Part shown: positions 4,785 through 8,253 of the stretch, one piece after another
Numbering within the stretch: position 1 is the stretch's first letter
How the letters are laid out: each line of letters begins with the position of its first letter
The notes under the pieces: model-generated
The model's input: only the letters and a program-made list of their open reading frames with translations
What the model was told of the DNA's origin: nothing
Database searches by the model: none
Made by a program: the position numbers and the translations under genes
Assembly (NCBI GenBank): GCA_015068865.1
Contig: SVJT01000004.1
Coordinates: 1-34,633 of the forward strand
DNA: 34,633 nucleotides
DNA from: Oscillospiraceae bacterium
GTDB taxonomy: Bacteria > Bacillota > Clostridia > UBA1381 > UBA9506
Direction of reading: 5' to 3'

Positions 4785-4819
4785 AAAAGACTGTAGAAAA
4801 ATATTCTTCTACAGTCTTT
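4785..4819 (-). terminator. Rho-independent terminator of the BlaI/M56-LCP/SLH unit
   Basis: AAAGACTGTAGAA (4786-4798) / TTCTACAGTCTTT (4807-4819); on - strand followed by TTTTCG. Confidence 0.7.
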
Positions 4820-4823
4820 AAAT

Positions 4824-5459
4824 TTATCTTCCTATATTCATCCTCAATGTTCTTAACGGCAATCCATTTTTTCCATTGTTAATTACATAAATACCTTCCT
4901 CTTCCATCACCATCAAAGGCACATCCAAAGCCTGATAAATCATCACCGCCACATCGTGTCTCACCGCCGGCACATTTACCGCAAACTGCATTCCGTTTGT
5001 AATGCCCAAAACACCGGCTTGTGCCGTATAGCCGGCCGGATAACCTCCTCTCGCCATCGCCAACTCACTATATCCCAACAATGCCACAATCATTTTCACA
5101 ATTTCTTCGTTGGTAATTTCATTTTCAGGATTAAACTGTCCGTTTTCATCTCCATTCACAATGCCTGCTTCTTTTAATGCACAAACATAAGGAAACGCCC
5201 AATGAACAGCACTCACATCAGCAAACCCATCTGCCTCTGAAAACTCTGTTTGCGGTGTAATATTGCCTGCCACACATATCATTTTTGCTGCTTCTGCCCT
5301 TGTAATCGTGCGTTCTAAGTGCAATTTTCCAGTTTCATCACCAACCATAATACCCAAATCATATAACGTTTCCTTTTGTATGTCCTCTAACGCGAAAGTC
5401 CCTGCCATAGTCACCCACAGCATACTAAATACTAATAATAAAGCCATTATTTTTTTCAT
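4824..5459 (-). CDS. Secreted SLH-domain-only protein (signal peptide + about three SLH repeats)
   Basis: N-terminal MKKIMALLLVFSMLWVTMAGTFAL signal; repeats YDLGIMVGDETGKLHLERTITRAEAAKMI, FADVSAVHWAFPYVCALKEAGIVNGDENGQFNPENEITNEEIVKMI, AGVLGITNG...VRHDVAVMI; AAGGAG 8 nt before ATG at 5459. Confidence 0.85.
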   Translation of the reverse strand: MKKIMALLLVFSMLWVTMAGTFALEDIQKETLYDLGIMVGDETGKLHLERTITRAEAAKMICVAGNITPQTEFSEADGFADVSAVHWAFPYVCALKEAGIVNGDENGQFNPENEITNEEIVKMIVALLGYSELAMARGGYPAGYTAQAGVLGITNGMQFAVNVPAVRHDVAVMIYQALDVPLMVMEEEGIYVINNGKNGLPLRTLRMNIGR

Positions 5460-5471
5460 TATCTTCACTCC

Positions 5472-7808
5472 TTAATAAATTAAATATTGTCCGTCAATTT
5501 GCCAGGTTCCCTGTGTTTTTCCCTGAATATTGATGTCATAGGTTTTATTCCGGTCAAAACCTAAAAAGGAATAGGCATTTTGGTTATTGGCAAGCACAAG
5601 GTACGAACCAACATTTTCTTTTGTTGCCGAATCAAAGAAAGAAATCTCCACCAAATTATCGCTATTCACTGTAAAGTATACGGATATATTTCCATTTTCA
5701 TCACAGCTAATTTTTGAATTTTCATAATGTAAATCGTTCTCATAACTATAGTCATTAACAATATAACTCTCGCTTAGCTTCGTAACATGCTGTTCTCCCT
5801 CCACAGAACCCTTCCGCTTCAGTAGTTCCTGCATTGTTTCTATATTGGCATTTTCTAAAATTAAATGCTGAAATCCTCCGTAAGGCATCTCAGATTGTTC
5901 ATTAGACTTGATGGGAGTGATAATTTCTTCTTCCGTAACGGGATGTACTCTCTTTTGTGTTTTTATTACGCTTTGCGGCGGTGTCATCCCCTTTACATTG
6001 TTTTCAGCCGGTTTTTTTTCTGTTAATTGGTTCTCATTTGTTTTGCATTGAAAAAACTGCAATACTTCTTTTGCTGCTTCCATATCAATTTGATACTCAA
6101 ACAGTCCCTCTTCTGTCACAACATTCTGCCCGGGTATCTCCTTAAAGGTCATATGATTTATATCAATTTTTCGCAGGTTTTCTATATCAGATACTAAATC
6201 ATCCAGCTGATAATTCGTCGCAATTCCATCCGTCAGAAATTCATATAGCTGTTCCGCATTTTTTAGCTTATTTTCTGCAATAACTTGTGCAAAAAATTCT
6301 TTCATAACAGAAAACCACATATTTCTTCGGCCTGACTCACCGTTACTTCCGCCCCGATACCGTAACAGATTCATGACCTGCTTACCGTTTAACCGTTGCT
6401 TTCCTTTTAATAATTCAATATGTAAGTCCTTATATGGGTCATCATAAACCATATCATAGGGAATATCAAACTCCAGTCCGCCAACGCTGTCAATCAGCAT
6501 TTCTACTGCCTGCATCTTGACTTTTGCGTAGTAATGAACGGGTATTCCAAGACTGCGTACTGCATCTACAGCCAAACTGTCACCATTTTCTTTTACTAAA
6601 AGTTCCGACATTCTGCCACTATGTTCTTGGCTTACAAAGTTCACATTTCTGGGAATGGAGAGTACGTTTACTTTCTCGTCGTCAGAACGAACGACCAAAA
6701 TAGCATCGGCACGACCGTTTTCATCAACACCAAGCAGCAAAATATTAAATTCTTCTCCCTGCCTTGCATCCGCCCCTACTGAAATACTATTTTCTGTTGA
6801 AACACGAACTTTTCCGTTAAGCATACCGCTGATAAAAAAGGCGCTGATTACAAAAACAATTCCTAATCCAATAGCACAAAACAGCTTTTTTCTACTAAAA
6901 TTCGCTTTGTTCTTCATATTTTGAAAACGCCTTGCCAAAGTCTTTTTATCCCCTGACATTCCTGTTGTAAAAGAAATTTCTCTTGTCTTTTCGGCAGTTA
7001 ATAAGGCTAAAATTGTCTCCATATACCCCTTTGTTTCAGCTCGACTCATATTTTTTACTACCGCCATATCGCAAGAGCTTTCACAATCCAAATGAACCTT
7101 TTTTGCTACAACATAAACAATGGGATTGAACCAATGAACACATTTAACAAAACTCAAAAACCATTTATACAAAATGTCTTGCCGTTTAAGATGGGTACAT
7201 TCATGAGCTAAAACATAGTGCAGCTGTTCTTCCGTCAACTTTTTTTCCGGAAGTAAAATCACCGGCTTATAAATACCAACCATTAACGGCGACGTAATGA
7301 AATTGCACAAACGCACCGCAACATTTCGCTTTGTATATTCTCCCATAGCAGGACAATCCACCAATTTAGAATGTAACTGAATCCGTATCTTAAAAACCAT
7401 ATAGCCAATCACTTTAAAAAACAGTAATATTACGATTCCTATGAACCATATATAAGCAAATAGTTTATAATCAACTGCAGGCATCATATATTCTTCTTTG
7501 GGTGCAGCCGGAGCCTCCGTTACTTCCTGAATCGTTTTCTCTCCTTCAGGAACCGGCAGTGTGTTTTGAATTCCTTCCGTTTCCGACACCGTCACTCTTT
7601 CTGTTACAGGAATCGTCTTTTCTATATTTGCAGCCGGCAGTTCAAAGGCAATCGGCAAAACCATAACCGCTAACACTGCCAGCCACATATAATAATGCCA
7701 TCCCGGAGAAAAAATTTTTTTCGTAATGGGTCGCAACAGTAATAAAATAACTGCCAGTACTGTCCCAACACAAGATGTTACAAGAAAGCTTTTAAAAATT
7801 TCAGCCAT
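5472..7808 (-). CDS. M56 (BlaR1-type) membrane metallopeptidase fused to extracellular LytR-CpsA-Psr (LCP) domain
   Basis: Four hydrophobic segments (about aa 8-28, 38-57, 117-138, 308-331); zinc motif HECTH at aa 202-206; LCP motifs NILLLGVDENGRADAILVV, VLSIPRN, MLIDSVGGLEFDIPYDM, LLKGKQRLNGKQVMNLLRYR, SGRRNMW; start 4 nt after BlaI stop. Confidence 0.9.
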   Translation of the reverse strand: MAEIFKSFLVTSCVGTVLAVILLLLRPITKKIFSPGWHYYMWLAVLAVMVLPIAFELPAANIEKTIPVTERVTVSETEGIQNTLPVPEGEKTIQEVTEAPAAPKEEYMMPAVDYKLFAYIWFIGIVILLFFKVIGYMVFKIRIQLHSKLVDCPAMGEYTKRNVAVRLCNFITSPLMVGIYKPVILLPEKKLTEEQLHYVLAHECTHLKRQDILYKWFLSFVKCVHWFNPIVYVVAKKVHLDCESSCDMAVVKNMSRAETKGYMETILALLTAEKTREISFTTGMSGDKKTLARRFQNMKNKANFSRKKLFCAIGLGIVFVISAFFISGMLNGKVRVSTENSISVGADARQGEEFNILLLGVDENGRADAILVVRSDDEKVNVLSIPRNVNFVSQEHSGRMSELLVKENGDSLAVDAVRSLGIPVHYYAKVKMQAVEMLIDSVGGLEFDIPYDMVYDDPYKDLHIELLKGKQRLNGKQVMNLLRYRGGSNGESGRRNMWFSVMKEFFAQVIAENKLKNAEQLYEFLTDGIATNYQLDDLVSDIENLRKIDINHMTFKEIPGQNVVTEEGLFEYQIDMEAAKEVLQFFQCKTNENQLTEKKPAENNVKGMTPPQSVIKTQKRVHPVTEEEIITPIKSNEQSEMPYGGFQHLILENANIETMQELLKRKGSVEGEQHVTKLSESYIVNDYSYENDLHYENSKISCDENGNISVYFTVNSDNLVEISFFDSATKENVGSYLVLANNQNAYSFLGFDRNKTYDINIQGKTQGTWQIDGQYLIY

Positions 7809-7811
7809 ACA

Positions 7812-8183
7812 CTATTCCTCCATTTCGTCAAGCATGGCTCTGAGTTCCTGTATATCTTTATCTGTAAATGTCTGTTCTTCAAAAAAAGCTGCTGTAAATT
7901 CCCGAACCGAACCATTATATAAGCTTTGAATCAAATTCTTTGTTTGCGATTGACGATATTCTTTTTCCGTAATCATCGATGTGTAATAATATAATTTTCC
8001 TTGTTTTTCCGCCTTCAGTGCTCCTTTTTCCACCAACCTGGTAAGAAACGTGGCAATGGTCGTTTTCTTCCATCCCTTCGACTCCACTGCTCTGCCTATT
8101 TCTAAGGATGTTATCGGCTCCTTTGCCTTCCATATCACCTTCATAATTTCCAGTTCTGCCTCACCAATACTAATATGCTTCAT
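7812..8183 (-). CDS. BlaI/MecI/CopY family transcriptional repressor
   Basis: ISIGEAELEIMKVIWKAKEPITSLEI...GWKKTTIATFLTRLVEKGALKAEKQGKLYYYTSMITEKEY: BlaI winged-helix family; RBS GGAGGG. Confidence 0.92.
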   Translation of the reverse strand: MKHISIGEAELEIMKVIWKAKEPITSLEIGRAVESKGWKKTTIATFLTRLVEKGALKAEKQGKLYYYTSMITEKEYRQSQTKNLIQSLYNGSVREFTAAFFEEQTFTDKDIQELRAMLDEMEE

Positions 8184-8204
8184 TTTCTAACCCTCCAATT
8201 CATT

Positions 8205-8216
8205 CTACACGTGTAG
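8205..8216. promoter_or_regulatory. Candidate BlaI-type operator 1: CTACACGTGTAG
   Basis: Perfect 12-bp palindrome of the TACAnnTGTA-like BlaI/MecI type between promoter and BlaI start codon. Confidence 0.7.
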
Positions 8217-8220
8217 TTTA

Positions 8221-8246
8221 TTATATTCTACCATTGTAGAATATAA
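8221..8246. promoter_or_regulatory. Candidate BlaI-type operator 2: TTATATTCTAC-catt-GTAGAATATAA
   Basis: Perfect 11-bp arms with CTACnnnnGTAG core, overlapping -10 and spacer of the promoter. Confidence 0.75.
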
Positions 8247-8253
8247 ATGTCAA
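8225..8253 (-). promoter_or_regulatory. SigA-type promoter for the BlaI/M56-LCP/SLH unit
   Basis: On - strand TTGACA (8253-8248), 17-nt spacer, TAGAAT (8230-8225). Confidence 0.8.

Follow-up and report, generated by a model that had tools for sequence, protein, structure and literature searches.

The window, by which we mean the whole stretch of 34,633 nucleotides analysed here, carries on its minus strand a tightly packed unit of three genes. From upstream to downstream these encode a BlaI/MecI-type repressor of 123 amino acids (7812..8183), a membrane receptor protease of 778 amino acids with an ATG start that joins an M56 domain, an LCP domain and a C-terminal domain (5472..7808), and a secreted tri-SLH protein of 211 amino acids including its signal peptide, also with an ATG start (4824..5459). 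For the SLH gene there is an alternative in-frame GTG at 5468, but the ATG is favoured because a ribosome-binding site, AAGGAG (5468..5473, minus strand), lies upstream of it, overlapping the stop codon of the receptor gene. ORFs, Pfam assignments and coordinates all match the preliminary description of this three-gene unit, the ORF coordinates exactly, and the single promoter 5' and terminator 3' that it had placed were both found, the latter as a terminator-like hairpin (4786..4819) between the operon and a convergent PHP gene. Two operator dyads and a third part of the receptor ectodomain, the C-terminal domain, were absent from that description.

The promoter (TTGACA-17-TAGAAT; 8225..8253, minus strand) matches the consensus at 11 of 12 positions and has a TG-extended -10, and other promoter-like sites in the region do not exceed chance (9 found vs 14.7 expected in shuffles). 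At this promoter lie two 16-bp inverted-repeat dyads, both read on the minus strand; dyad 1, TTCTACAATGGTAGAA (8226..8241), covers the spacer and the -10 box, and dyad 2, AACTACACGTGTAGAA, occupies 8203..8218. Related operons that were examined keep the -35 box and dyad 1 over the -10 in a similar geometry, and in most of them a recognisable dyad 2 follows ~24 bp further on, with half-sites that vary by BlaI clade among the operons compared. When the host's own draft genome was searched with the operator patterns CTACANNNGTAGAAT and WCTACNNNNGTAGWA, no site was found outside this promoter, although further sites may be missed as this genome is only 81% complete. A wider BlaI regulon in this genome was accordingly rejected; BlaI seems to control no more than its own operon, which in this incomplete genome apparently leaves the SLH protein as the single non-regulatory output. 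In a second system genome (G001) there are two additional matches to the operator pattern, both within ORFs.

The C-terminal domain (residues ~638-778; 5475..5897, minus strand) was delimited by domain searches and lies within the ~270 residues by which the receptor continues past its LytR_cpsA_psr region. It is modelled by AF2 as a β-sandwich of ~140 amino acids (pLDDT 82.7), and a Foldseek search of the PDB with this good model gave nothing at E <= 0.001. A search with this domain alone hit 6 of the order's 95 genomes and, at the level of the class, 21 of 392 sampled genomes; combined with a scan for the SLH protein it yielded 25 distinct systems in Clostridia genomes, matches in G179 and G358 being left out as weak or as a rearranged variant. 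The latter (L096:3444-8796) consists of BlaI, an M56 protein with an end like the C-terminal domain, a secreted protein that resembles this domain alone and a secreted SLH-like protein of 757 amino acids, flanked by near-duplicate segments. No further match to the C-terminal domain was found in a phylum-wide sample of ~398 other genomes, on which basis the domain appears to be confined to Clostridia. The hosts are metagenome-assembled genomes labelled as Clostridia, Oscillospiraceae or Ruminococcus; where a source is stated, it is mostly the gut of ruminants or other animals. For a GTDB-wide scan the SLH alignment was used, since alignment patterns of the C-terminal domain proved too variable, and 80 loci were returned; SLH proteins at least 44% identical to that of the window all stand behind BlaI and an M56 gene with the C-terminal domain (17/17), and the more distant ones never do (0/63). 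Among these 63 is a separate M56-SLH pairing (L124:3988-6558), with BlaI, a short M56 protein (444 amino acids) and an SLH protein (223 amino acids), in which the C-terminal domain is not detectable, a case that speaks against the model favoured below. We found no description of a BlaI-M56-SLH system in the open-access literature, most subscription journals being outside this search.

In all 25 systems an SLH gene lies directly downstream of the C-terminal domain and BlaI upstream, a recurrence which argues that the arrangement is not due to chance and supports the view of a compact unit that apparently regulates itself and keeps SLH as its third gene. M56 genes without the C-terminal domain had an SLH gene within 100 nt in none of ~44 cases, the SLH gene at one such locus (L223) being 362 nt away; with 40 controls the Fisher value for this coupling is ~1e-18, which overstates the evidence because related lineages are not independent. 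M56-LCP and SLH genes do co-occur in the genomes surveyed (G000, G001, G005, G284 and L101), so their never doing so is clearly contradicted, but the partner proposed for SLH, M56-LCP, has to be exchanged for the C-terminal domain. Most systems with the C-terminal domain have no LCP domain, and M56-LCP receptors without it (G087, G040) have no SLH neighbour; in G015 the contig ends before this can be judged. The LCP domain was thus ruled out as the link to SLH. Tree distances among 24 systems gave correlations of 0.79 for BlaI with M56 and 0.68 for the C-terminal domain with SLH, the cross pairs lying at 0.2-0.36, and there are therefore two evolutionary units, BlaI with M56 and the C-terminal domain with SLH. 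One system (L101) shows a swap between these units, in which BlaI and M56 are close to those of the window and the C-terminal domain groups with G022/G029. Its 977-amino acid M56-LCP receptor (L101:1564-4497) also carries an apparent tandem copy of the C-terminal domain.

An explanation that we regard as unlikely, although it is the most likely of the alternatives, is that the SLH protein is an output only, a wall cap or protectant induced by some other wall signal, and that the C-terminal domain and SLH are merely adjacent DNA. This would fit an SLH protein that is the sole non-regulatory product in its own draft genome, and the C-terminal domain, at the 3' end of its gene, does adjoin the SLH gene in the operon, so that cassette transfer may explain part of their joint inheritance. 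However, the coupling is complete to one domain and not to M56 as such, and once M56 and BlaI are controlled for, SLH keeps a partial correlation of 0.64 with the C-terminal domain (permutation p 0.0005), vs 0.04 for SLH with M56. Moreover, in a split variant (G194) the C-terminal domain has a gene of its own, the second one downstream of the M56 core, and SLH again follows it directly.

As first described, the SLH protein consists of a signal peptide and about three SLH repeats only. Two of these are called by Pfam (PF00395; 4e-18) and the third is supported by the AF2 model (pLDDT 91.6), which superposes on the SLH trimers of Sap and SpaA. Foldseek matches at E <= 0.001 are SLH trimers only, with 3pyw and SpaA-SLH at E 1e-6 to 2e-8; the match to Sap (3pyw) has TM values of 0.66/0.70, and the SpaA matches are complexes with pyruvylated ligands. 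Using published groove rules, which define a Trp13/Gly29/Arg43 triad (PMC6081394), groove 1 has all of its residues (SLH1 Gly, SLH2 Trp and SLH3 Arg) in 18 of 18 proteins. Groove 2 keeps its Arg and Gly in every one of them (18/18), and in 17/18 a Tyr stands close to where Trp is expected; groove 3 is lost, Asn replacing Arg throughout (18/18). In the model the protein is thus a true SLH trimer, two of whose pyruvyl-polymer grooves are intact. In predicted fold and in its two pyruvyl-ManNAc grooves it is like Sap and SpaA, but unlike them it anchors little or nothing (in the window, signal peptide and SLH only) and its gene is locked to that of a receptor. The pyruvyl transferase gene csaB (TIGR03609) scores above the cut-off in all 17 system genomes examined, and the system genomes are all rich in SLH repeats (62 matches in the window's own genome). 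Judged by the modelled grooves, csaB and this abundance of repeats, the SLH protein very likely attaches to the polymer that the cell requires for SLH display, which narrows the earlier choice of cap, ligand or competitor to a predicted polymer-binding receptor partner.

The repressor matches Penicillinase_R (PF03965; 1.2e-32) along its full length, with a winged helix and a dimerisation domain, and aligns to the MecI/BlaI structures 1okr and 1sd4. At the known Asn-Phe cleavage site the P1' Phe is kept and the P1 Asn is replaced by Ala. In the receptor, the M56 domain (PF05569, 1e-57; residues 10-297; 6918..7781, minus strand) was compared with the sequence of the BlaR1 cryo-EM structure 8exp, for which the roles of catalytic and accessory residues have been described (PMC9834060). 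The HECTH motif (7205-7191, minus strand), ESSCD and the equivalents of Asp210, Tyr261 and Arg293/294 are all present, and because the zinc site (HEXXH, ExxxD) and accessory residues are kept the protease is predicted to be active. Against the NCBIfam blaR1 model the receptor scores 128 bits, far under the 400-bit cut-off.

The homology of BlaI and M56 might suggest an ordinary response to β-lactams or other wall antibiotics, with wall stress leading to BlaI cleavage, and small autoregulated BlaI regulons occur in C. thermocellum, where the BlaI_0696 and BlaI_1845 operons likewise hold M56 (BlaR1) genes and hypothetical outputs, no SLH pairing being mentioned in the consulted part of that report (PMC8457756). 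We consider this response improbable, as Pfam found no penicillin-binding (class D-like) sensor in the receptor, whose ectodomain is occupied by the LCP and C-terminal domains, and there is no β-lactamase or PBP gene among the operon ORFs. The system shares with BlaI/BlaR1 and MecI/MecR1 of staphylococci and Bacillus licheniformis a dyad-operator repressor, an M56 gluzincin membrane protease with its catalytic residues, an extracytoplasmic C-terminal sensor and an autoregulated operon, but unlike them has an ectodomain of LCP-like and unassigned β-sandwich parts and a secreted SLH protein as apparently its only output. We class it with the BlaI/M56 kind, and neither as a β-lactam sensor nor as an LCP transferase.

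The LCP domain (residues 366-508; 6282..6713, minus strand) is extracytoplasmic, scores above the gathering threshold for PF03816 (6.8e-19) and matches TagU/TagV structures. In Cps2A, Arg267, Arg362 and Arg374 contact phosphate with Asp371 and Gln378 in support, Asp234 and Asp246 hold magnesium, and Lys135 and Asn137 of S. aureus LcpA lie near a proposed peptidoglycan site (PMC7831098); by our reading the latter two constitute the KIN motif. We set eight M56-LCP domains against 37 other LCP sequences, and residues equivalent to Asp234, Asp246, Arg267 and Arg374 are present in 8/8. However, the Gln378-type pocket residue is replaced by Trp, His or Gly in all eight, vs its presence in 36/36 other LCPs, the Asp following the SIPR Arg is altered in 7/8, and KIN is missing from its place in 8/8, a KVN match in G000 sitting elsewhere in the domain. 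Compared with TagTUV and Cps2A, the eight thus share the LCP fold and most of the Asp/Arg lipid-pyrophosphate residues, but lack KIN and the Gln378-type residue and are fused to a protease. This pattern suggests that donor binding has been retained and acceptor use lost, and the domain looks like a sensor rather than a transferase, although the two losses are no proof of lost enzyme activity. We see a parallel with BlaR1, whose sensor is a repurposed β-lactam-binding domain. That the domain is an active glycopolymer transferase, in a circuit tying polymer attachment to SLH display, is very improbable despite its metal and phosphate residues and the LCP-SLH co-occurrences listed above, given the acceptor motif and pocket Gln gone in 8/8, a normal LCP paralogue (L229) in the same genome and the lack of any link between LCP and SLH where the C-terminal domain is missing. 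The closed circuit originally proposed consequently survives as a conserved, apparently autoregulated three-gene unit, from which attachment of a wall glycopolymer by LCP should be dropped as unlikely.

We hypothesise that this unit is a one-operon switch of the BlaI/BlaR1 type which monitors the SLH-binding (pyruvylated) wall polymer through a secreted co-sensor, a reading that we favour with modest confidence. By homology, and from the dyads, BlaI bound to the two operators would keep the operon shut, and, as in BlaR1, the activated cytosolic zinc protease of M56 would cleave BlaI. Outside the membrane the degenerate LCP domain is a likely binder of lipid-linked wall polymer, while the C-terminal domain would pair with the co-encoded SLH protein and read whether or not this is bound to wall polymer, so that the SLH protein would serve in feedback as well as in co-sensing outside the cell. 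A titration gauge is the logic that we consider most likely: free polymer sites would take up SLH protein and keep the switch on, and once the polymer is saturated SLH protein would go back to the receptor and switch it off. The conserved operon with its dual operators, the coupling of the C-terminal domain to SLH, the degenerate LCP site and the intact SLH grooves are computational results; BlaI cleavage, contact between receptor and SLH protein, the direction of the feedback and the ligand are inferred. More tentatively, and on balance with some doubt, the receptor may not bind its ligand unaided, the secreted SLH protein being a soluble co-receptor that docks on an ectodomain reserved for it and a pseudo-enzyme LCP domain sensing lipid-linked precursors. 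The whole would then be an autonomous, homeostatic gauge of how much wall polymer is supplied.

To our knowledge there is no explanation of how Gram-positive bacteria keep SLH display in step with the quantity of pyruvylated wall polymer. If our hypothesis is true, these gut Clostridia would possess a dedicated sensor of that polymer, arising from a domain swap that equipped the BlaR1 protease with wall-binding parts, and BlaI/M56 would be a general wall-sensing chassis of which antibiotic sensing is one special case. What the system appears to gauge, in a self-contained manner, is the bacterium's own wall polymer and not an antibiotic, and the C-terminal domain and SLH protein provide a directly testable receptor-ligand pair.

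The ectodomains of sister M56 receptors are also wall-related, and include M56-LCP-M23 (G040) and M56-CuAO_N-M23-Cterm (G197) architectures. In the same order four loci encode direct M56-SLH fusions (L012/L050, L022/L051, L052:9269-11143 and L198:4606-6459), possible one-piece wall-polymer receptors, and this use of SLH modules as a receptor ectodomain lends weight to the idea that the detached SLH protein, too, takes part in sensing. An M56-LCP-M23 triple fusion at L049:967-3177 has a BlaI gene ahead of it, and an M56-CuAO_N-M23-Cterm receptor at L080:6984-9545 has an SLH gene downstream. Split receptors, in which M56 core and ectodomain are successive separate genes, are common here (L082:3181-7985; L212-L227), and a 299-amino acid M56 match that adjoins a 303-amino acid LCP match (G029:C42:102131-103607) is possibly another split M56/LCP pair. 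Within the linker of the window's receptor (5800-6040), QKRVHPVTEEE is similar to the sequence with which the M23 domain of G040 begins (GKRVHPITNEV), and at the same linker position G001 and G015 have an extra domain of ~150 amino acids that the window lacks.
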